Shown: positions 4,362 to 23,955 of the stretch, piece by piece
Numbering within the stretch: the first letter of the stretch is position 1
Layout of the letters: each line of letters begins with the position of its first letter
Origin: Aurantimonas endophytica
GTDB lineage: Bacteria; Pseudomonadota; Alphaproteobacteria; Rhizobiales; Rhizobiaceae
Length of the DNA stretch: 64,000 nt
NCBI RefSeq assembly: GCF_014196845.1
Contig: NZ_JACIEM010000006.1
Location: 124,001-188,000 of the forward strand
Reading direction: 5' to 3'
Position numbers and translations under genes: made by a program
The notes under the pieces: model-generated
Databases searched by the model: none
Told to the model about the DNA's origin: nothing
What the model saw: only the letters and a program-made list of their open reading frames with translations

Positions 4362-7141
4362 ACGGCCCGGCCAGAAGCGGCGACGCGCCGCCGTGTGCCG
4401 CGCGCGTAAAGGCAGTCAGTCACGTCTTCAAGAAGACGCGTGCGCTCGACGGGGTCTCGATCGACTTCCCGTCGGGTAAGATCCTGGGCCTGATCGGTCC
4501 GGACGGCGTGGGCAAGTCAACCTTGCTGTCGCTCATCGCCGGCGCGCGCAAGGTGCAGCAGGGCGAAGTCGAAGCGCTCGGCGCCGACATGAGGAACGCG
4601 CGCCAGCGCGGCGAGATCGGCCCGCGCATCGCCTACATGCCGCAGGGGCTCGGCATGAACCTCTATCCGACGCTGTCCGTCTTCGAGAACGTCGACTTCT
4701 TCGGCCGCCTCTTTGGCCATGCCCGGAAGGAGCGTGCGCAGCGCATTCACGAACTCCTCGCCGCGACGGGCCTGGACCCGTTTCCCGATCGCCCGGCGGG
4801 CAAGCTGTCGGGCGGGATGAAGCAGAAGCTCGGCCTGTGCTGCGCGCTGATCCACGATCCCGACCTCCTGATCCTCGACGAGCCGACGACCGGCGTGGAT
4901 CCGCTCGCGCGCCGCCAGGTCTGGGAGCTGATCGGCGAGATTCGGACAGGCAGACCCGGCATGGGCGTCATCGTCGCCACCGCCTACATGGACGAGGCGG
5001 CCGATTTCGACTGGCTCGTCGCGATGGATGCAGGGCGCGTGCTCGCATCCGGAACCCCGGCAGAACTGCGGGAGCAAACCGGGAGGCCCTCGCTTGACGA
5101 GGCCTTCATCGCGCTCCTGCCGGAGGCAAAGCGCAGTCGGCATCGCAAGGTCGAGATTCCCCCCCGTCGGGAAGCCGATGGCGACCGGCCCGCGATCGAG
5201 GCGGAGGGGCTGACGATGCGCTTCGGCAGTTTCACGGCCGTCGACGATGTCAGCTTCCGCATCCCGCGCGGCGAGATCTTCGGCTTCCTCGGCTCGAATG
5301 GCTGCGGCAAGACCACCACCATGAAGATGCTGACCGGACTGCTGCCGGCCAGCGACGGCACGGCCCGGCTGTTCGGCCAGGAGGTCGACCCGCACGATAT
5401 CGATACGCGGCGACGCGTCGGATACATGTCGCAGTCCTTCTCGCTCTATTCCGAGCTGACCGTCCGGCAGAATCTCGACCTCCACGCCCGGCTCTTCCAG
5501 ATGCAGGCGGGCAGTATTCCCGGGCGCATACAGGAAATGGCCAAGCGCTTCGATCTCATGGAGGTGCTCGACGCATTGCCCGGCGCGCTGCCGCTCGGCG
5601 TGACCCAGCGCCTGTCGCTCGCCGCGGCAATGATCCACGCGCCCGAAATCCTGATCCTCGACGAGCCGACCTCCGGCGTCGATCCCGTCGCGCGCGATTC
5701 GCTGTGGCAGAGTTTTGCTGACCTCTCCCGCCAGGACGGCGTGACGATCTTCATCTCCACCCATTTCATGAACGAGGCGGAACGTTGCGACCGCATCTCG
5801 CTGATGCATGCGGGCAAGGTGCTCGTCAGCGATACGCCGGATGCAATCGTAAGAAAGCGCGGCAGCGCCGACCTGGAAGATGCTTTCGTCACTTATCTGA
5901 AGGAGGCGATCGATCGGGAGGAGGGCCCGCAGGCCACCAGGCCGGGAGCGGACTCCGCCTCGCCGAAGGTCGTCCATGCTGCTGCTCACGAGTCCGGACC
6001 AGCCCGAAGCCGCTTCCTCGATCCTCGACGGATCATGAGTTATGCCCATCGTGAGGCACTGGAGCTGCGTCGCGATCCGATCCGCGCTTCCTTCGCCCTC
6101 ATTGGCAGCCTGCTGCTGCTCTTCGTGCTCGGCTACGGCATCAGCATGGATGTCGAAGATCTGCCATTCGCCGTCCTGGACTACGACCAGACGACCTTGA
6201 GCCGGGACTATACGCTCGACATCTCGGGCTCGCGCTACTTCATCGAACGGCCCCCGATACTCGACCCGGCCGACATGGACCGGAGGATGCGCAGCGGCGA
6301 ACTCAGCCTCGCCATCGAGATACCGCCCGGCTTTGCGCGCGAGGTGGCTCGCGGCCGGAACGTGGAGATCGGCGCGTGGATCGACGGCGCCATGCCCTCG
6401 CGCGCGGAGACGGCCCAGGGCTACGTCGAGGGCCTGCATGCGCACTGGCTGCAACGCCAGGCACGGGAGGCGCGAGGCGACGAGGCGATGGCGAGCGACT
6501 TCCGGCTGGAGACGCGCTTTCGCTACAATCCGAACGTCGAGAGCCTCATCGCCATGGTCCCCGCGGTCATAGCGCTCGTCCTGCTCTTCATCCCGACCAT
6601 GCTGGCGACGCTCTCGATCGTCAGGGAAAAGGACGTCGGTTCCATCGTCAATCTCTACGTGACGCCCGTGACGCGTCTGGAATTCCTGCTCGGCAAGCAA
6701 CTTCCCTATGTCGCACTGGCGATGTTGAACCTCGTCACCCTGACGGCTTCGGCCATCCTCCTCCAGCGCGTTCCGTTCACAGGCAGTCTTTCTGCCTACG
6801 CTCTGGGAGGTCTTCTCTACGTCATTGCCGCGACGGGGCTCGGCCTCCTGGTGTCGAGCTTCATGAACAGCCAGATCGCGGCGATCTTCCTGACGACCGT
6901 CGTGACCATGGTGCTGGCGGTTCAGTATTCCGGCATGATCGACCCGGTCGCCTCGATGGAAGGGGAGGCCGCAATCATCGGCGCGCTCAACCCCGCGACC
7001 CACTTCGTGACCATCGCCCGCGGAACCTTCTCCAAGGCGCTCGGCGTCGGGGACCTGACCACACCGATCCTGTCACTGCTTGCCACCGGCCCCGTTCTAC
7101 TGGCCCTGAGCGTTCTGTTCCTCAAGAAGCAGGCACGCTGA
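4358..7141 (+). CDS. rbbA: RbbA-type ABC transporter: two ATPase domains fused to an ABC-2 permease
   Basis: The 927-aa fusion has ATPase domain 1 (about residues 20-250; Walker [10 protein letters not shown], signature LSGGMKQK, Walker [13 protein letters not shown]), ATPase domain 2 (about 285-520; [20 protein letters not shown]) and an ABC-2 permease (about 565-927) with a large periplasmic loop after the first helix. The second domain lacks a canonical LSGGQ and reads [10 protein letters not shown]. coli RbbA (911 aa), described as a ribosome-associated ATPase, has the same architecture. ATG 4358 overlaps the previous stop and is preferred to ATG 4325. With its neighbours it should form an exporter; the substrate is unknown. 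Confidence 0.9.
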
Positions 7142-7143
7142 GC

Positions 7144-8232
7144 ATGCGGATTGCCACCATCTGGCGACTGGGTATCAAGGAATTATGGGGCCTGCTGCGC
7201 TCGCCGGCACTCCTTGTCCTGATCGCAGCGGTGTTCTCGATCCAGGTATATGCGTCGGCCGTCGCGACCCCGTTCTCGCTCAACAAGGCGCCGATATCGA
7301 TCGTGGACGAAGACGTCTCGCCGCTTTCGGCACGCGTCGCCTCGGCATTCTACCTGCCCTATTTCAATCCGCCGCGGGCGATCACCCTGACGGAGATGAA
7401 CCGGCGGATGGATGAAGGCACCGACACCTTCGCGCTGGTCATCCCGCCCCACTTCCAGCGGGACCTGCTGGCCGGCAGCGAGCCCACCATGCAGCTCAAC
7501 GTCGATGCGACCCGCATGACCCAGGCCTTTACCGGCGCCGGCTATGTCCAGGCGATCGTCGCTGGCGAAGTCGCAGAATTCCTGCAGCGTTACCGCGCCG
7601 TCACGACCCCGCCGGTGGAACTGATACTCCGCGCCCGCTTCAATCCGGAACTTAATCTCGGCTGGTTCAGCGGGTTGATGGAGGTCGTCAACAACATCGC
7701 CCTGCTGTCGGTCATTCTGGCTGGCGCCGCCCTCATCCGCGAACGCGAACGCGGCACGATCGACCACCTTCTCGTCATGCCGGTGAAGCCGGTGGAGATC
7801 GTGCTCGGCAAGATCTGGCCGATGGCGATGGTGGTGCTGGTGGCGGCGTGCCTTTCCATCACTGTGGTGGTGCAGACGTGGCTGGCCATCCCCGTGGCGG
7901 GCTCGCTCTGGCTCTTCGTGCTTGGCATGGCGCTGCAACTCTTCGCGACGACCTCGCTCGGCATCCTGCTTGCGACGATTGCCGGATCAATGCCGCAATT
8001 CGGTCTGCTCCTCATGCTGGTTCTCTTTCCGCTTCAGATCCTGGCCGGCGGGCTGACGCCGATCGAGAACATGCCGGGTGGGCTTCGGCAGCTTATGGCG
8101 CTGGCGCCCGACACGCATTTCGTCTCGCTCTCGCAGGCGATCATGTTCCGCGGGGCGGGGCTAGAGGTCATCTGGCCAGAGCTGTTGAGCCTCCTCGCCA
8201 TCGGCCTGGCGTTTTTCGCGATATCCTTGTGA
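7144..8232 (+). CDS. ABC-2 permease (YhhJ type), with a premature TGA
   Basis: The 362-aa permease has one N-terminal membrane helix, a periplasmic domain of about 150 residues, and then five helices, the last being ELLSLLAIGLAFFAISL. It starts 2 bases after the rbbA stop and completes the YhiI/RbbA/YhhJ-type exporter. After the TGA at 8230-8232 the same frame continues with codons for RFRKSLR and then a TAG at 8254-8256. Relatives usually end in an Arg-Phe-Arg-Lys tail directly after the last helix. The gene therefore seems to have lost its last eight or so residues to a nonsense change, or the base is a sequencing error. The membrane core is intact and may still work. Confidence 0.87.
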   Translation: MRIATIWRLGIKELWGLLRSPALLVLIAAVFSIQVYASAVATPFSLNKAPISIVDEDVSPLSARVASAFYLPYFNPPRAITLTEMNRRMDEGTDTFALVIPPHFQRDLLAGSEPTMQLNVDATRMTQAFTGAGYVQAIVAGEVAEFLQRYRAVTTPPVELILRARFNPELNLGWFSGLMEVVNNIALLSVILAGAALIRERERGTIDHLLVMPVKPVEIVLGKIWPMAMVVLVAACLSITVVVQTWLAIPVAGSLWLFVLGMALQLFATTSLGILLATIAGSMPQFGLLLMLVLFPLQILAGGLTPIENMPGGLRQLMALAPDTHFVSLSQAIMFRGAGLEVIWPELLSLLAIGLAFFAISL

Positions 8233-8470
8233 CGCTTCCGAAAGTCACTGCGATAGCGACGATGCCACGGTGGCCGGCCCTGAGTTCGGACCGCCTTGCG
8301 GGATAATCTCCAGGTGATGCTGCTCCGGCCGGCGAACTGCTGAAACGTCAGGCCCTGTGCTTTGCGGCAGCGCTGATGTGGTCTCAATCCGTCGCGTTGA
8401 CCAGCCGGGGTAACCGGCACCGCCCGCTTGAAGGGAGACGAAACGCACCGGTCTTGGTATTCGTCGTGCC

Positions 8471-9568
8471 ATGCCGTCGATCCCGTTGCCGTTCGTCATC
8501 TCCCTTGTCCTGTGCCTTCTCCTCGTCCGCATGGGCCGGCAGGATGACGGGAGGCTCGGCCTGTTTCCGTTGCTCGTCGGCGCCTTCGCCCTTCAGGCGG
8601 CTCTGTCCGGACTGAACTGGAGCCTCGGCTGGCATCCGGTTCGGCTCGTGCAGCCGATCCTCGCGGCCGTTCTGCCCGCCCTCGCCTTCGTCGCGTTCGA
8701 CCATCTGCGCCGGAGCGGCAAGCCAGACCCGGCCCGACTCTGGCCGCATCTCGCACCAGCCCTTCTCGTTTCAGTCCTCATCGTCATCCGGCGCGAGCCG
8801 ATCGACCTCGTGCTCTTCGCCGTCTATCTCGGCTACGGCATCGCGCTCCTGCGGATGAGCCGAGCCGGGCCGGGCGCGCTGGTCGCGGCGCGTATCGGCG
8901 ACGAAAATGTCGCCCATCGAGCGCTCGTCGCGCTCGGCTCGCTTCTCATCGCCACCGCCTTCATCGATGCCGCCGTCTCCCTCGACCTCGCGTTCGGTGG
9001 CGGGCGGCTCGCCGGGACGATCCTTACGGTCTCCGGCGTCCTGTGGCTCGCCGCCGCCGGCTATGCCGCGACCGCCGCCGAAGGCAGTCGCCCCGCATCC
9101 GAACCGGACGGCATACAGGACGTGCCGGCATCGCCTACGGCAACGATCGACGGGGGGATCGATGCCGGACCACCACCGGAGGATGCCGCCATCGTCGCGC
9201 GGATCGATCGCCTGATGCGCGAGCACCATCTCTACCGCGACCCGGACCTGACGCTCGAACGCCTCGCCCGCCGCGCCGGCACCCCGGCCCGCCAGATATC
9301 GGCCGCGCTGAATCGCATCCATGGCCGCAACGTCTCGCAAATCGTCAACGAGTACCGGGTGGCGGAGGCGCGAAAGCGCCTCGTCGAGACGCGCGAACCG
9401 GTGACGACCGTGATGCTGGAATCAGGCTTCGGCACGAAGTCCAACTTCAACCGGGAGTTCCTGCGCGTCACGGGCATGAGCCCGAGCGCCTACCGGCAGT
9501 CCAACGGCAGCATCCCTGGCGAAGCGACCTCCGCGCCGGGGAGGGGATCGACCGCAGCCGCGTCCTGA
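8471..9568 (+). CDS. membrane-anchored AraC-family transcriptional regulator
   Basis: A 365-aa protein with an N-terminal half of about seven hydrophobic segments (residues 1-205) and a C-terminal AraC/XylS DNA-binding domain (about 240-345). The recognition region reads LTLERLARRAGTPARQIS, followed by the second helix-turn-helix ending FNREFLRVTGMSPSAYR. This architecture, a membrane sensor joined directly to an AraC domain, lets a cytoplasmic DNA binder respond to a membrane or envelope signal. It lies just before a MacA/MacB-like exporter on the same strand (107-bp gap) and is the obvious candidate regulator. The signal is unknown. Confidence 0.85.
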   Translation: MPSIPLPFVISLVLCLLLVRMGRQDDGRLGLFPLLVGAFALQAALSGLNWSLGWHPVRLVQPILAAVLPALAFVAFDHLRRSGKPDPARLWPHLAPALLVSVLIVIRREPIDLVLFAVYLGYGIALLRMSRAGPGALVAARIGDENVAHRALVALGSLLIATAFIDAAVSLDLAFGGGRLAGTILTVSGVLWLAAAGYAATAAEGSRPASEPDGIQDVPASPTATIDGGIDAGPPPEDAAIVARIDRLMREHHLYRDPDLTLERLARRAGTPARQISAALNRIHGRNVSQIVNEYRVAEARKRLVETREPVTTVMLESGFGTKSNFNREFLRVTGMSPSAYRQSNGSIPGEATSAPGRGSTAAAS

Positions 9569-17587: not shown

Positions 17588-18250
17588 TCACGCGTCTGGG
17601 GACGGAACTCCAGGCTTCGTGGTGTGCGGAAAATCGCCAGTAGCGATGTAGTCCAATTCCTCTGGCGTGCTGTCGCGCCCGAGAACCGCATTGCGGTGGG
17701 GGTGGCGACCGAAGCGGGCGATCACCGCGCGATGCTTGCGTGGTTGGCCCGCGCCCATCACGCTGACCTGCCGCAGGTGCGGCGGCGCCTCGTCGATGAG
17801 GCGGTCCGCGATGGCGATGGCGATATCGAGGTTCGCGAGGTGGTCGGCCGGATCGGCGCATTCGCAGTGTTCCAGCGGGATCTTGAAGGCGGTCTTCTGC
17901 CAGACGTTCTCCAGCGCGTCGAAATGGCCGTTCCTCAGCCCTTCCAGGCAAAGGTCTCGAGCCTTCTCGTCGTAGGCATAAGCGCGCGGCGTGCCCGCCC
18001 AGACCGACCGGGTAAACTGATCGAAGATCAGAATCAGAGCCAGTCGCCCCATGGGCGTATCTGCCCAATGGTCCAGTTCGCCCGCAGCGGCGCCTGTCGT
18101 GAGGTCGGAGAATCGCCTGATCACCTCATCATTGGCGCCACCTCGCATACGCCAGCTCCACAGACGCATGTGCTCGTCTGCTGTCGGCGCATCGCCATCG
18201 GGGAACCAAAAGGCGACGATGTCTTCGGGGATATGGTCCTGGGTGTGCAT
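17588..18250 (-). CDS. DUF924 family protein
   Basis: The 220-aa protein carries the DUF924 hallmarks: FWFPDG near the start, LILIFDQFTRSVWAGTPRAYAYD in the middle, and ARFGRHPHRNAVLGR with STPEE near the end. The family is all-helical and TPR-like with no established biochemical role. ATG 18250 has AGGAA about 10 bases upstream and gives the usual short lead-in before FWF. A GTG at 18289 with a good GAGGGG site would add 13 residues and cannot be excluded. The gene lies between tRNA-Arg and the degenerate tRNA end. The 18290-18502 gap shows nothing. Confidence 0.9.
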   Translation of the reverse strand: MHTQDHIPEDIVAFWFPDGDAPTADEHMRLWSWRMRGGANDEVIRRFSDLTTGAAAGELDHWADTPMGRLALILIFDQFTRSVWAGTPRAYAYDEKARDLCLEGLRNGHFDALENVWQKTAFKIPLEHCECADPADHLANLDIAIAIADRLIDEAPPHLRQVSVMGAGQPRKHRAVIARFGRHPHRNAVLGRDSTPEELDYIATGDFPHTTKPGVPSPDA

Positions 18251-18502
18251 TGGCGTCCGGTTCCTGTCTTCCGGGGCAATGAAAGACACGTTGAACCCCT
18301 CAACGGATTATTGTCGGGTGCTCAATGCGCGAGTATTGCGGATGCGCACAGGAATTACCATCGTCGCTACGCCCGCCGAACCGCTCCCCGGATCTGGCTC
18401 TGGTATGGCGATGAAGGATCATCCCCGGCAGCATTGGCTCAGTGTCCGCTTCGGGCCGATGGCGAGCGATGGTGCCCAGCTTTATTCTGGATTGGTGGAT
18501 TT

Positions 18503-18579
<77 letters not shown>

Positions 18580-18750
18580 GAGGGCCGCCGCGAGGGCGGG
18601 CCGGATATCGTCACTCGATAACCGATCCGGCCGGCGCCCGCAAGGAAGCTTCGCGCGTCGCGAGACGCGAGCCTCAGCCAAGCCGGGGCTCGCCTCCGGC
18701 AGCCCTCGCTGCGGACAGGAGAAGTCCGATACCGGAATGTCCTCGTACGA

Positions 18751-20145
18751 TCAGGAAACGTCGAGGATGATGACACTCAACGGTTCGACGAGGCTTCCGG
18801 GAGCGGGAAACTGGCTTCTCACCCTGGCACCTGGACGACTCGCATCGCCGCGGACCTCAGGCTGCACTCCGCTGCGAAGCGTCACGAAGAAGAAATCCCC
18901 CAATTCCCGCGGGTCGAGCCCCAGTGCGTCCATGTCGTTGCCGAGAAACGCCAGGCAGTGGTCGACGCCCTCCATCTGGATGCACGCCAGCAGACCGACG
19001 ACGGGATCGGCCATCTGTCCGACCAAATTGGGCATGGCATTCGGGGCGGACAGCGAGCCCGCCGACTCCCTCTTCACGAGCGGCGGCAGGACAGGCTCGG
19101 CGAGCGGGGGAGAGAGCGAACCCGGATCGAAGAACTGGGGCGGATTGATCTGTCCTTTCGACAACCTGACTGCATGCGACGTCACCGCATTCATCAGTTT
19201 CGTGTAAGCGGCGGACACGCCCAGAAGATCGCTGGCAGGAGGAGGGTCCTGGAAGAACTCCGGAAACCTCAGGGCGAATTCGACGTCGTTGCGCGTCTGG
19301 ATGTAACGCAGTTTCTTCTCCCTCGCGTCGGCGAGAGCCTCCAGGAAAGCCTCCTGCTCAGTGGGGGTCGGGACGGGTAGGGGAATCGTGTCGTATGTCG
19401 CGACCTCGGTCTCGTAAGCGGAGGCACTCGCCTCGGCGATTTCCGGGAACTTTTTGTATCGCTCGATGACCTCTTCGATGGTCACGGTGGGCGAGATCGT
19501 CGAGCCCGATCCCGCACGCTGATACATAACGGACGTAAATTCTGATCGGCTCGAAGCGCTGTTCTTTGTTTTCTCGAACTCCAGCTTGAACTCTCCGGAC
19601 GCGACCAGACCGTTGTATTCGGCCTGCAGCGCAGCAGCGAGAGCGGTCTGCGTGGCTGTCGAGACGGAGGTGATGCGCACCACGGCGTAGAATTCTCCAC
19701 CTGTCTGCAGACCCCTGACGAAGCTGTCTCCGAACGCGCGCTCGAATTTCTCCATCTGCAGGGAATCCAGAAGAGCCTTGGCTTCCGCCGTGATGCGGAA
19801 ATTGCGTCCTCGAACCAGCGGGTTCTCGACGACGACGCTCGCGACCACGAAGGTCGACATGGAGTTGTAGTTGGTCCGCTCCGAGAACTGCGCCTTGGCC
19901 GACCCTGCCACGAGCCCGTACCGACCCTGCGCCTCGAACGACATGCCTAGCGCTTCCTGGAGTTCTTCATGCGTGGAGATGATCGAGATCGACGAGGCCA
20001 CCTCCGCCCCGGTCGCGGCGGGATTGGCCTGGATGGTGAAGCCCTCCAGGGCGCTGCCCACGGCCTGACCCGTCCGGCTGTTGAACCCCATGCCTATTTC
20101 CTCGTCGTTGAAGGCCAGACGACGAACCTGCGGTACCTCCGGCAT
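18751..20145 (-). CDS. putative MACPF-domain (perforin-like) protein with a C-terminal PASTA-like domain
   Basis: A 464-aa protein without an N-terminal signal peptide. The segment FGDSFVRGLQTGG (residues 138-150) fits the MACPF signature of aromatic-Gly-x-x-aromatic, then six residues to Gly-Gly. It is flanked by Ser/Ala/Gly-rich amphipathic stretches at about 65-90 and 166-191, where MACPF proteins have their membrane-inserting helix clusters. The last 94 residues begin MPNLVGQ and end SQFPAPGSLVEPLSVIILDVS, the opening and closing pattern of a PASTA domain, but with a long insertion. The start at 20145 has GGAGA 6 bases upstream; the longer frame from 20280 would overlap the next gene. It could be a pore-forming effector or a surface/wall-binding protein. 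Evidence is motif-level only. Confidence 0.6.
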   Translation of the reverse strand: MPEVPQVRRLAFNDEEIGMGFNSRTGQAVGSALEGFTIQANPAATGAEVASSISIISTHEELQEALGMSFEAQGRYGLVAGSAKAQFSERTNYNSMSTFVVASVVVENPLVRGRNFRITAEAKALLDSLQMEKFERAFGDSFVRGLQTGGEFYAVVRITSVSTATQTALAAALQAEYNGLVASGEFKLEFEKTKNSASSRSEFTSVMYQRAGSGSTISPTVTIEEVIERYKKFPEIAEASASAYETEVATYDTIPLPVPTPTEQEAFLEALADAREKKLRYIQTRNDVEFALRFPEFFQDPPPASDLLGVSAAYTKLMNAVTSHAVRLSKGQINPPQFFDPGSLSPPLAEPVLPPLVKRESAGSLSAPNAMPNLVGQMADPVVGLLACIQMEGVDHCLAFLGNDMDALGLDPRELGDFFFVTLRSGVQPEVRGDASRPGARVRSQFPAPGSLVEPLSVIILDVS

Positions 20146-20222
20146 GGCAATCTCCAGACGAAGAAACGATCGGCTGGCCCGCGCTATCTTGGGCTCTGCG
20201 TAATGATGAAGAACGGGCCGAT

Positions 20223-20855
20223 CTAGAACTGGTTTGAGCTGGAAACGATACGAAAGCTGTTCGACTGATCCGTCCGCCAACTGACGACTATCCAGCCATC
20301 GGGCCCTGCCGCCTCTTCGGCTGAGGCCTGGGCCTGTTCCAGCGACATGAAGAGCGGCGACATCGACATGGTGCAGTCTTCGGAGGAAAGGTCGAGATTC
20401 ACGCCGGAGAAGAACTCCAGAGACCCAGTTCCGAGCGCTTCGAGCGTCGCCGTGATCTCATCTCCGAGGCCGGGAAGCACCTGCTCCGCGGGGAGCGAAT
20501 GATGCGCGGACGTTCCGACCGAGACAATAACCACCAGAAGGCCCGCGAATGCCCCTGCCAGACCTGCCAGATGACGTGCGTGCCAGCCGGCGTGCAGCAG
20601 ATGCGCCCCATCGATTGCCAGAGCCACCCCATGGCCGGGGCTCCCTTCCAAAGCAGCGACGCATGGAGAATCGAAGGCAATGCCGTTTTCCGCTACGTCC
20701 GCGCCGACTGCGACCCCGTCATTGAATGCATCGAAGTCTTCTTCGGAGATGGAATCGCTGGGGACCGGAGAGGTGATCGCGGCCAATCCGTTGCAGAAAC
20801 CCTCAGCCCAGGCAGCTTCCTTGAAGGGCACCGCCTCGAATGGATTGCGGATCAT
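20223..20855 (-). CDS. single-pass membrane protein of unknown function, upstream of the MACPF-like gene
   Basis: I do not recognise this 210-aa protein. The N-terminal part (1-60) has a FEAVPFKEAAWAEGFCNGL segment and Gly/Ala-spaced pseudo-repeats (GFCNGL, NDGVAVGADVAENGI). One transmembrane helix lies at about residues 96-114. A soluble C-terminal domain of about 90 residues carries an EQAQASAEEA helix and ends DGWIVVSWRTDQSNSFRIVSS. ATG 20855 has AAGGA 6 bases upstream. The gene precedes the MACPF-like gene by 77 bases on the same strand, so the two are probably co-transcribed and may act together. Composition appears less GC-rich than the flanks. Confidence 0.7.
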   Translation of the reverse strand: MIRNPFEAVPFKEAAWAEGFCNGLAAITSPVPSDSISEEDFDAFNDGVAVGADVAENGIAFDSPCVAALEGSPGHGVALAIDGAHLLHAGWHARHLAGLAGAFAGLLVVIVSVGTSAHHSLPAEQVLPGLGDEITATLEALGTGSLEFFSGVNLDLSSEDCTMSMSPLFMSLEQAQASAEEAAGPDGWIVVSWRTDQSNSFRIVSSSNQF

Positions 20856-21304
20856 CACTTATCCTTAACCTAGACATATCTGGTAAGCGAACGCTCCAGA
20901 TAAAAAGGAAAGCCGGATTTTGAATATTAGCGAAGACAATATTACACCTATCATTACCTTGCGTCAATCAAGCGGGCTGAAATTACTCCGTCGGGCTTCA
21001 TTGCTGAATTGTGGCGATGGACCTGGCTCTTCGCAAAGACGGCAGTCTCCGATGCATTTGAGACGGGCTGGCGTGCGAGAATGGATCTCGCTCGCGATGC
21101 TGAAGGCGGCGAGCTGCAATTGCGCCGAAAATGCCGACCGATCGCAAAGTGAATATTGCCGGCCCGCAAACGGTGCGGATCACTGTCCTCCGGGCAGGGC
21201 GCGTTAGACACCGCAGCCGGGCGCGGAGATTCCCGTCGCCTTCCGGCGTGGTGCGATCTATAGATGCGCGCACCGGCGCCAGTGTGGCGTCACTGGCTTC
21301 ACCG
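20856..21304. other. AT-rich divergent intergenic region
   Basis: About 450 bases separate the membrane-protein gene from the divergent GNAT-C39 gene. The first 120 bases, with runs such as TTTTGAATATTAGCG, are clearly AT-rich compared with the surrounding genes. This fits a promoter and an acquired module boundary. A frame from 21131 could extend the GNAT-C39 protein N-terminally by 58 residues, but that stretch is Arg-rich and unlike the family. Confidence 0.45.
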
Positions 21305-22456
21305 ATGTCGCACGCGTCCCGCTCCGTCTCGCCCGTCGCCGACCTCGTCCTGCGGCGTGCCGGCCCCGACGACGTCGAGCGGCTCGAGCGTCTGGAGAAT
21401 GCGGCGTTCGACGCCGACCGGATCTCCCGCCGTTCCTTCCGGCGGCTGGTCGCTGCGTCCAGCGCCATTCTGCTCGTCGCCGAGACCACCGGGGCCGGTC
21501 CCGACGCCCCGTTCGCCGGCTATGCGGCGCTGCTGCTGCGGCGCGGCACCGGCCTTGCCCGCCTCTACTCCCTCGCGGTCGCGCCGGATGCGGCGGGAGC
21601 CGGCGTCGGCCGGGCGCTTCTCGAGGCGGCCGAGAAGGCAGCCTACGAGAGCGACCGCATCGCGCTGCGGCTGGAAGTGCGCGAGGACAATGCCCGCGCG
21701 CTGTCGCTCTACCGGTCGGCAGGCTACCGCAGGATCGGCAGGAGCCTCGACTATTATGCCGACCACAGCCCGGCGCTGCGCTTCGAGAAGACGCTGCGCG
21801 GCGAGACGGCGATCGATACGGGCGTTCCCTATTATGCCCAGACCACCGATTTCACCTGCGGTGCCTGCTGCCTGATGATGGCGATGGCGCGCGACGTGGC
21901 GGACTTCCCCCTCGAGCCAGTCACCGAAATCCGGCTGTGGCGGGAGGCGACGACCGTCTTCATGATGTCCGGTCCCGGCGGCTGCGACCCCTACGGCCTG
22001 GCGGTGGCGGCGCACGAATTCGGTCTCGACGCGCAGATCCACGTCTCCGAGCCGGGCGACCTGTTCCTCGAGAGCGTCCGCAGCGCCGAAAAGCAGATGG
22101 TGATGGCGCTTGCCCAGGAGGATTTCCGCCGCCGCGCGGTCTCCTACGGCATTCCGGTGCTGATCCGGCCGTTCACCCTGATGGACCTGCGCGCCGCGAT
22201 CGCCGCGGGAAAGACCGCGGTGGTGCTGATCTCCGGCTACCACATGTTCGACAAGAAGGTGCCGCACTGGGTCCTCGCCCACGGGGACGACGGACGCCAC
22301 ATCGTCATCCACGACCCCTGGGTGGCCGACGAACGCGGCGAGACGGCCGCGGACGCGGCCAGCCTGCCGATCCCCTACGAGACCTTCGACCGGATCGCCC
22401 GCTTCGGCAAGGTGGGGCTTCGGGCGGCCGTCTTCCTTTCCAGACGCGAGGCCTGA
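21305..22456 (+). CDS. GNAT acetyltransferase fused to a C39-like cysteine peptidase
   Basis: A 383-aa two-domain protein. Residues about 15-150 are a GNAT (RimI-like) N-acyltransferase, with the acetyl-CoA loop in LYSLAVAPDAAGAGVGRALLEAAE and the LSLYRSAGYRRIGRSLDYY end. Residues about 170-383 are a C39-like papain-fold peptidase: catalytic Cys185 in TDFTCGACC, a His in VPHWVLAHGDD and an Asp in HDPW. The start at 21305 is chosen by where the GNAT fold begins; its ribosome site is weak. It ends 8 bases before a RimK-like ATP-grasp gene. Such pairs recur in proteobacteria, but I know of no demonstrated substrate. Peptide or protein N-terminal processing is a reasonable inference. Confidence 0.85.
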   Translation: MSHASRSVSPVADLVLRRAGPDDVERLERLENAAFDADRISRRSFRRLVAASSAILLVAETTGAGPDAPFAGYAALLLRRGTGLARLYSLAVAPDAAGAGVGRALLEAAEKAAYESDRIALRLEVREDNARALSLYRSAGYRRIGRSLDYYADHSPALRFEKTLRGETAIDTGVPYYAQTTDFTCGACCLMMAMARDVADFPLEPVTEIRLWREATTVFMMSGPGGCDPYGLAVAAHEFGLDAQIHVSEPGDLFLESVRSAEKQMVMALAQEDFRRRAVSYGIPVLIRPFTLMDLRAAIAAGKTAVVLISGYHMFDKKVPHWVLAHGDDGRHIVIHDPWVADERGETAADAASLPIPYETFDRIARFGKVGLRAAVFLSRREA

Positions 22457-22464
22457 GTTCCGTC

Positions 22465-23919
22465 ATGTCGCAATGGGTGGTGCTGGTCGGCCGGGCGGCC
22501 GATCTCGACAACGGCCTGACGCCGCACAAGATCATGACCAGCCGCGACTATCTGGCGCGACCGGTCCTGTTCCAAGGCCAGCGGCCGAAGATCATCAATT
22601 TGTCGCGCTCCTACGCCTACCAGAGCCGCGGCTACTATGCCTCGCTGCTCGCCGAAGCGCGCGGCCACCGCATCATTCCCTCCGTCGAGACGATGATCGA
22701 CCTGTCGGAGAGGAAACTCTACGAGAACGCTTTGCCGGAGCTCGACGCCGTCCTCGGCAAGGCGCTTGGTGATGCGCCACTGCCGCAATCGCCGATCCGG
22801 ATCTATTTCGGCTATGGCGAGGATCCGCGCCTCGAGCGCTTCGCCAAGCTGGTGTTCGACTGGTTCCGCGCGCCGGCGCTGGAGATCCACCTGGAAACAA
22901 GAGCCGGACGCCCGGCGATCAAGCGCATCGGCTTCGCCTCGCTCGGCAAGCTCGATGCGACCCAGATGGAGCGGCTGCTGGCGGCGATGGCCCGGCACAC
23001 GGCGCGCGAATGGCGCGAGGCGAAGGCCAAGACGCCGGCGAAATACGCCTTCGCGACCCTCTACGACCCCAAGGAGACGCTGCCGCCCTCCTCGGTCGCC
23101 AGCCTCAAGCACTGGGCGCGCATCGCCGGGCGGCTCGGCGTCGATGTCGAGCCGATCACCCGCAAGGACCTGCCGCGGCTCGCCAATTTCGACGCGCTGT
23201 TCATCCGCGAGACGACGTCGATCTCCAACCACACCTACCGCTTCGCTCGGCGCGCCATGCAGGAGGGGATGCCGGTCATCGACGACCCGATCTCGATGAT
23301 CCGCTGCACCAACAAGGTCTACTGCAACGAGCTGATGGCGCAGAACGGCATCGCGACGCCGCCCTCGGTGATGATCGGCAGCAAGGAGGACCTGGTGCGC
23401 GCGGCCGACCTGCTCGGCTTCCCGATGGTGCTGAAGATCCCCGACGGCTCGTTCTCGCGCGGCGTCAAGAAGGTCGACGACAAGGCCGGGCTGGAAGCCT
23501 TGGCGACGTCCTGGCTCGAGGACAGCGACCTCCTGATCGCGCAGAAATTCATGCCGACCCGCTTCGACTGGCGCATCGGCGTTCTCGGCGGCGAGCCGCT
23601 CTTCGCCGTGCAGTATCTGATGGCCGGCGAACACTGGCAGATCATCAATCACGAGGCGGGCGGGCGGCCGCTGGAAGGCGGGTTCCGGGCGTTCTCGCTG
23701 GCCGACGCGCCGCCGCACGTGCTCGATGCCGGGCTGAAGGGCGCCCGCTGCATCGGCGACGGGCTCTACGGCGTCGACCTCAAGGAGACCGACGACGGCG
23801 TCTTCCTCATCGAGATCAACGACAACCCCAATCTCGAGCACGGCGTCGAGGACGCCGCCGAGAAGGACGAGGTCTGGACCCGGCTCACCCGCTGGTTCAT
23901 CGACCGGATCGAGCGGTAG
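22465..23919 (+). CDS. RimK-like ATP-grasp ligase with an N-terminal extension
   Basis: The 484-aa protein has an N-terminal region of about 170 residues (opening WVVLVGRAADLDNGL) of the type found only in long RimK-family proteins. An ATP-grasp ligase domain follows, about 200-484: MIRCTNKVYCNELMAQNGIATP, the ATP-binding VLKIPDGSFSRGVKKV, and the metal-binding FLIEINDNPNLEHGVED. RimK-type ligases add amino acids to the C-terminus of proteins or peptides or join peptides. The adjacency to a GNAT-C39 protein suggests a combined cleave/acylate/ligate activity, which is inference. It converges on the response-regulator gene with a 36-base gap. Confidence 0.88.
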   Translation: MSQWVVLVGRAADLDNGLTPHKIMTSRDYLARPVLFQGQRPKIINLSRSYAYQSRGYYASLLAEARGHRIIPSVETMIDLSERKLYENALPELDAVLGKALGDAPLPQSPIRIYFGYGEDPRLERFAKLVFDWFRAPALEIHLETRAGRPAIKRIGFASLGKLDATQMERLLAAMARHTAREWREAKAKTPAKYAFATLYDPKETLPPSSVASLKHWARIAGRLGVDVEPITRKDLPRLANFDALFIRETTSISNHTYRFARRAMQEGMPVIDDPISMIRCTNKVYCNELMAQNGIATPPSVMIGSKEDLVRAADLLGFPMVLKIPDGSFSRGVKKVDDKAGLEALATSWLEDSDLLIAQKFMPTRFDWRIGVLGGEPLFAVQYLMAGEHWQIINHEAGGRPLEGGFRAFSLADAPPHVLDAGLKGARCIGDGLYGVDLKETDDGVFLIEINDNPNLEHGVEDAAEKDEVWTRLTRWFIDRIER

Positions 23920-23955
23920 CGGGGCGGGCGGCGCCGCTGAACTCCGGCTCTGCCC

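Follow-up and report, generated by a model that had tools for sequence, protein, structure and literature searches.

A MACPF protein with a divergent PASTA-like C-terminal module at a variable site in Aurantimonas endophytica

Perforin-like proteins are immune effectors, and a few of them are bacterial toxins. What, then, is a gene that seems to join a MACPF (membrane attack complex/perforin) core to a PASTA-like ending doing in an alphaproteobacterium? The gene, named here P0001, lies in a 64,000-nucleotide stretch of Aurantimonas endophytica (contig NZ_JACIEM010000006.1, positions 124,001 to 188,000; the whole of this stretch is called the window), where an earlier note, made from the sequence alone, had singled it out. 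It is read on the minus strand from an ATG at 20145 to a stop at 18751, giving the 464-aa open reading frame (ORF) that the note had described. Our analysis indicates that P0001 is a MACPF/CDC (cholesterol-dependent cytolysin) protein, and probably an effector that makes pores and takes its aim from exchangeable heads.

The MACPF claim of the earlier note started from a short motif, and the motif stands. FGDSFVRGLQTGG conforms to [YF]Gx2[FY]x6GG, the signature form given in a figure legend of PMC9505663, and is the sole match to it in 85,747 residues, the sum of the window's stop-to-stop frames of at least 80 aa. The signature arose in 22 of 20,000 shuffles of P0001, and its full form is kept in 12 of 17 aligned related cores. 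These 17 cores make up profile A3 (340 positions). Left out of it were two 33-aa contig ends (L007 and L008), the broken Nonomuraea copies (L030, L032, L034 and L035), the repeats of L001-L006 (L022-L027), the partial L028, and L031 and L033; L066, L067, L068 and L072 were found later and do not form part of it. Against the PDB at E<=0.1, A3 retrieved four sequences, all of them MACPF (for Aeg-L this status is read from the alignment): Aeg-L at 6.9e-11, perforin-like protein 1 (5oup) at 3.4e-4, and Mpf2Ba1 at 7.1e-4 and 1.6e-3. Aeg-L (PDB 9uj0) was also found at E 3.9e-4 using a profile of seven homologues, and a phmmer search of the PDB with P0001 alone gave a best E of 0.17, three of the four listed entries being Aeg-L and Mpf2Ba1. 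A further link is L067, encoded in a planctomycete-phylum genome: A3 retrieves it at 5.8e-6, it contains RYGTHVVTKVLLGG, and Pfam scores it as MACPF at 3.3e-12. On these comparisons of sequence we regard the MACPF homology of the P0001 core as established, and its fold as probably MACPF.

The idea that the motif had arisen by chance was ruled out by the shuffles together with the PDB matches of A3. L068, another A3 match in a planctomycete-phylum genome (E 3.9e-4), looks on reading like a coiled coil, drew no match from Pfam and is almost surely false, and for that reason isolated matches near E 1e-3 were not trusted.

Several results weigh against this reading of the core. P0001 has no match to Pfam MACPF (PF01823), and just 2 of the 17 cores match it at E<=0.1, neither of them above the cut-off (best E 0.0014). 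The core was also poorly modelled: an AlphaFold2 model of the full protein, built from a 7-row alignment, had a whole-protein mean pLDDT (predicted local distance difference test) of 57.9, with 10-residue block means of 20-69 over residues 1-260 and higher ones from residue 261 onward. The earlier note had placed amphipathic, Ser/Gly-rich stretches on both sides of the signature. Such stretches exist, at residues 68-92 and 173-197 (uncorrected p 0.013 and 0.048), but three further windows of the core score between these two values, which makes the pair weak evidence for hairpins. NCBIfam gave no match for P0001. When the weak full model was compared by Foldseek, the top 8 of 204 rows were MACPF structures, at E 0.05-0.2 (C8 alpha, five rows of astrotactin-2, a C5b9 chain and GNIP1Aa); VIA rows, which are helical look-alikes over residues 255-354, were not used. 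As for the fold comparison proposed in the earlier note, a fold other than MACPF/CDC, which the note had named as grounds for dropping the idea, did not appear, but the core model is too poor to confirm the MACPF fold with its bent four-stranded sheet and two helix clusters. Astrotactin-2 is a MACPF relative described as acting in neural development. Its place among the top rows, together with the weak amphipathy of the presumed hairpin regions, would suit a protein of MACPF fold with an adhesion or structural role in place of pore formation; we consider this highly unlikely, as the conservation of the core across phyla and the exchange of heads, described below, would fit an effector better.

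The other end of the protein was analyzed separately. Pfam PASTA (PF03793) matches P0001 at E 0.04, with 14.3 bits against a curated cut-off of 23.2, and for this reason we call the module PASTA-like. Its relatives behave similarly: L006 scores 18.7 bits and a broken Nonomuraea piece 22.7, both below the cut-off, and L001 and L002 have no Pfam PASTA match. Modelled alone, the last ~95 aa reached a pLDDT of 87, and in the fold comparison PASTA structures took ranks 1-17 of 59, although with weak E-values; the module differs from them by a helical insert of ~25 aa. Judged by this model, the module has a PASTA fold in divergent form, so that the PASTA-like ending seen in the earlier note is supported by the fold comparison and, weakly, by Pfam. 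A profile of the module found no match in the PDB at E<=1. Searching 14 genomes with the module gave four positives, each at a MACPF end, and all four are the profile's own rows, with no new occurrence among them. The only two cysteines of P0001 form a conserved pair in the insert (Cys388 and Cys397), which hints at an oxidising place. P0001 lacks a hydrophobic N-terminus and any visible export signal; the highest 12-residue Kyte-Doolittle (KD) value near the N-terminus is 0.80, consistent with the absence of a signal peptide that had been noted before.

Where else does this protein occur? A scan of GTDB genomes yielded 35 pattern stretches and, from them, eight loci, two of which are 33-aa contig ends. 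P0001 is 73% identical to a relative in a Pirellula metagenome-assembled genome (MAG), 63% to one in a Thermomicrobiales MAG and, over the whole protein, 38% to one in Allorhizocola; over the core, the scan gave 68% for Nonomuraea, 63% for Paenibacillus and 61% for Hymenobacter. L001 and L002 are MAG contigs, and L003-L006 come from named strains. Over residues 1-350, identity to the Pirellula, Thermomicrobiales, Nonomuraea, Paenibacillus and Hymenobacter relatives is 62-78%. The Thermomicrobiales relative belongs to Thermomicrobiota and Allorhizocola to Actinomycetota; the others we take to belong to Planctomycetota (Pirellula), Actinomycetota (Nonomuraea), Bacillota (Paenibacillus) and Bacteroidota (Hymenobacter). 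By sequence identity, then, cores 62-78% identical to that of P0001 are present, sparsely, in five phyla besides that of the host.

The sparseness is visible at every rank. In genome counts that include the central genome, and for which large groups were sampled, the family was found in no other of 60 relatives than the A. endophytica genome itself (one match), in 4 of 374 genomes of the taxonomic family (two of the others being profile rows), in 3 of 385 genomes of the class and in 5 of 398 of the phylum. This fits the rarity of MACPF proteins in such bacteria asserted in the earlier note. In the phylum of Nonomuraea only Nonomuraea itself was positive (1 of 396), and in that of the Pirellula MAG 4 of 324 genomes were, including the MAG and the almost surely false L068. 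Remote relatives also turned up in plasmid records: three, from Streptomyces, Indioceanicola and Paracoccus, each carrying the annotation 'hypothetical protein'. For two genes of the window, the best plasmid matches fit an alphaproteobacterial origin, as the 8 rows listed for each gene were all from genera of that class. Phage carriage was rejected after searches of phage records and viral contigs gave no match, and a known defence protein was rejected after PADLOC gave none.

The module and the core do not share the same closest relatives. The core of P0001 is 78% identical to that of the planctomycete contig L001 and 28% to that of the Allorhizocola locus L006, whereas its module is 63% identical to that of L001 and 78% to that of L006. 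Informative columns joining the window with L001 versus L006 number 172:9 in the core and 3:18 in the module (p=0.0015, bootstrap 0.9997). In four-taxon trees of core and module the approximately unbiased (AU) test kept all three topologies, so the case for exchange rests on the identities and the informative columns. From these we infer that the module was exchanged between cores; against this, unequal rates in core and module could also produce the pattern. Related cores carry quite different tails. Pfam recognizes jacalin (L019, 1.2e-12), leucine-rich repeats (L029, 2.6e-9), GON (L020, 4.4e-5), beta/gamma crystallin (L010, 2e-6) and, below its cut-off, a ricin-like domain (L014, 5e-5). By reading alone, L028 ends in a laminin-G-like, L018 in a phage-tail-collar-like and L003 in a C2-like segment, and L005 in a repeat; Pfam named none of these four tails, giving only TrkA_N for L005 (E 0.0045, below cut-off). 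L029 is a second family member in the Allorhizocola genome of L006, a 707-aa open frame with its leucine-rich-repeat tail. That one kind of core bears such different tails suggests a weapon whose aiming parts can be exchanged.

How would such a weapon work? P0001 would start as a soluble monomer, released by lysis or by another route. Its PASTA-like head would most likely recognize and bind the target, possibly peptidoglycan or another envelope component, after which the core would most likely oligomerize on the membrane, insert two hairpins and make a pore. Pore formation, target and export are all presumed here, and targeting by the C-terminal module is proposed by analogy with BSAP-1, whose C-terminal domain drives receptor recognition (PMC12853789). 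In PknB, the PASTA domains have muropeptides as ligands (PMC3145798), which would make the bacterial wall a reasonable target here. Taken further, P0001 could be a perforin from outside the Bacteroidales that is used against bacteria, with its PASTA-like head on peptidoglycan, within a mobile family that crosses phyla and in which the heads choose the victim (PASTA-like heads for walls, lectins for eukaryotic glycans). We put this extended version forward tentatively and think it rather unlikely to hold in full.

The same heads can be turned to a different argument. Related cores carry jacalin and ricin-like domains, the bacterial MACPF protein Mpf2Ba1, which is among the A3 matches, is insecticidal (PMC10344926), and most MACPF/CDC proteins act across kingdoms (PMC12853789). 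P0001 might, on these grounds, be a pore-former aimed at eukaryotic cells, such as those of insects, nematodes or grazing protists, with the PASTA-like head turned to a ligand on the eukaryotic surface. The best-studied PASTA function is, however, muropeptide binding, which points to bacteria (PMC3145798), and we hold a eukaryotic target to be possible but doubtful. Whichever the target, this family has one core in bacteria of five phyla beyond that of the host of P0001; its C-terminal heads vary, and one of them occurs on two cores that differ widely. The family makes it testable how bacterial MACPFs change targets, and, if the head does bind peptidoglycan, P0001 would be a directly testable perforin aimed at bacterial walls.

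P0001 has a partner. P0002 ends 77 bp upstream of it, and an equivalent with 74% identity over 208 aa directly precedes the L001 gene. P0002 has one membrane-like stretch, which is also present in the L001 equivalent (19-residue KD 2.32 and 2.07), and L001 has an extra small ORF upstream of it with no counterpart in the window. Among 13 other genomes searched for P0002, only that of L001, itself a row of the P0002 profile, was positive; plasmid records and viral contigs contained none, and P0002 has no family match, no PADLOC match and no PDB relative (best E 0.97). Most simply, P0002 would be an accessory, giving immunity or helping with release. A two-gene mobile cassette, patchily distributed and encoding a MACPF protein that has no export signal, would also suit an intracellular pore-former directed at its own cell, which it would kill or arrest in the manner of bacterial gasdermins, P0002 being its regulator. 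We judge this very improbable: the neighbourhood has no protease-like gene and PADLOC no match, swapped lectin-type heads would fit extracellular targets, and the conserved cysteine pair hints at an oxidising place.

The two genes lie in a stretch of 2,540 bp, and the P0001 gene was present in none of seven congeners. In congener G002 the stretch is replaced by 103 bp, between flanks (18503-18670 and 21211-23920) that are 96% and 92% identical to those of the window. In congener G003 the same site (L056, 5852-8577) holds ~2.7 kb of other DNA, and in three other congener regions the right flank aligns and the tRNA-Arg side does not. The G003 insert has a 568-aa ORF at 6188-7894, by reading a betaine-type transporter, making this a variable site. 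The site adjoins the 5' side of the tRNA-Arg(ccg) gene and so differs from the usual integration point at the 3' end. The stretch has a G+C of 0.605, versus 0.671 for the window; three genes nearby, at 15-18 kb, are likewise low in third-position G+C, so composition lends only mild support to import. The coordinates of all features are collected in Table 1.

Table 1. Features of the P0001 locus, in window positions
Feature	Position	Strand	Basis
P0001, MACPF / PASTA-like protein gene, 464 aa	18751..20145	-	ORF reading, identities, profile against PDB
MACPF core, residues 1-350	19096..20145	-	profile A3 against PDB
MACPF signature FGDSFVRGLQTGG, residues 138-150	19696..19734	-	motif scan
Presumed first hairpin-forming region, residues 61-96	19858..19965	-	inferred from place before signature; alignment; weak amphipathy
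Presumed second hairpin-forming region, residues 162-202	19540..19662	-	inferred; alignment; weak amphipathy
Linker, residues 351-369, poorly conserved (28-50% identity)	19039..19095	-	
PASTA-like C-terminal module, residues 370-464	18754..19038	-	identities, model of module, fold comparison
Helical insert (residues 378-402, holding Cys388 and Cys397) of the PASTA-like module	18940..19014	-	
P0002, partner gene, 211 aa from GTG 20858 (ATG 20855 next), one membrane-like stretch	20223..20858	-	
Promoter-like site upstream of P0002	20938..20967	-	consensus match only; 2 overlapping sites vs 0.4 expected
2,540-bp stretch; congener G002 (L055) has 103 bp in its place	18671..21210	.	
tRNA-Arg (ccg), adjoins the stretch on the tRNA's 5'-end side	18503..18579	-	

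Some observations on the surroundings and on the relatives are recorded here in their own right. Beyond the tRNA, the closest congener matches of window positions 17588-18289 are 38-43% identical, a second copy in the same genome is 39% identical, and this may be another acquired gene. At window positions 21131-23919, two genes stand side by side that by reading are acetyltransferase plus C39-peptidase-like and RimK-like ATP-grasp; the former is present in all eight genus genomes searched, and the region aligns at least partly in all five congener regions. In L001, genes that by reading resemble an IS66-type transposon (7747-9460) follow directly on the planctomycete MACPF gene, on its downstream side. 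The crystallin-tailed remote relative L010, on a linear Streptomyces plasmid (CP146838.1), has IS5 and Tn3 transposase genes around it and adjoins a small gene of repeated motifs. In Streptomyces sp. SA15, two contigs (L007 and L008) break off at the same point and share the family's initial 33 aa, while a third (L028) starts inside a core, which suggests that two near-identical copies broke the assembly. In addition to its intact gene, Nonomuraea has a fragment of the core and another copy divided between two reading frames (L030, L032, L034 and L035), and the split copy ends in a PASTA-like stretch nearer the Pfam cut-off.

Bacterial MACPF proteins, their horizontal transfer and their varied C-terminal domains are already known (PMC2954219, PMC11952106). 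In the literature searched, which leaves out most subscription papers, we found no MACPF core fused to a PASTA domain. The closest structure, Aeg-L, is the best match of A3 (E 6.9e-11) and aligns over positions 10-324 of 340, where the aligned rows retain the signature's GD and GG; its MACPF status is a reading of that alignment. Mpf2Ba1 is laid out like P0001, with a single C-terminal domain after the MACPF core; this domain is a beta-prism in Mpf2Ba1 (PMC10344926) and PASTA-like in P0001. CDC-like (CDCL) proteins belong to the same superfamily as P0001 and count more than 300 members in eight phyla; they come as two-part pairs of long and short CDCLs (PMC11952106), whereas the window's genome has a single family match and P0002 matches no family. 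The PASTA domains of PknB, StkP, PBP1 and PBP2x sit on kinases or transpeptidases; the module of P0001, in contrast, has a helical insert of ~25 aa and two cysteines, falls below the Pfam cut-off and is carried by a MACPF core. BSAP-1 and the other antimicrobial MACPF proteins of the Bacteroidales have a lipidated N-terminal cysteine, a signal that P0001 lacks, and owe their receptor specificity to the C-terminal part (PMC12853789), the same division of labour that we propose for P0001.
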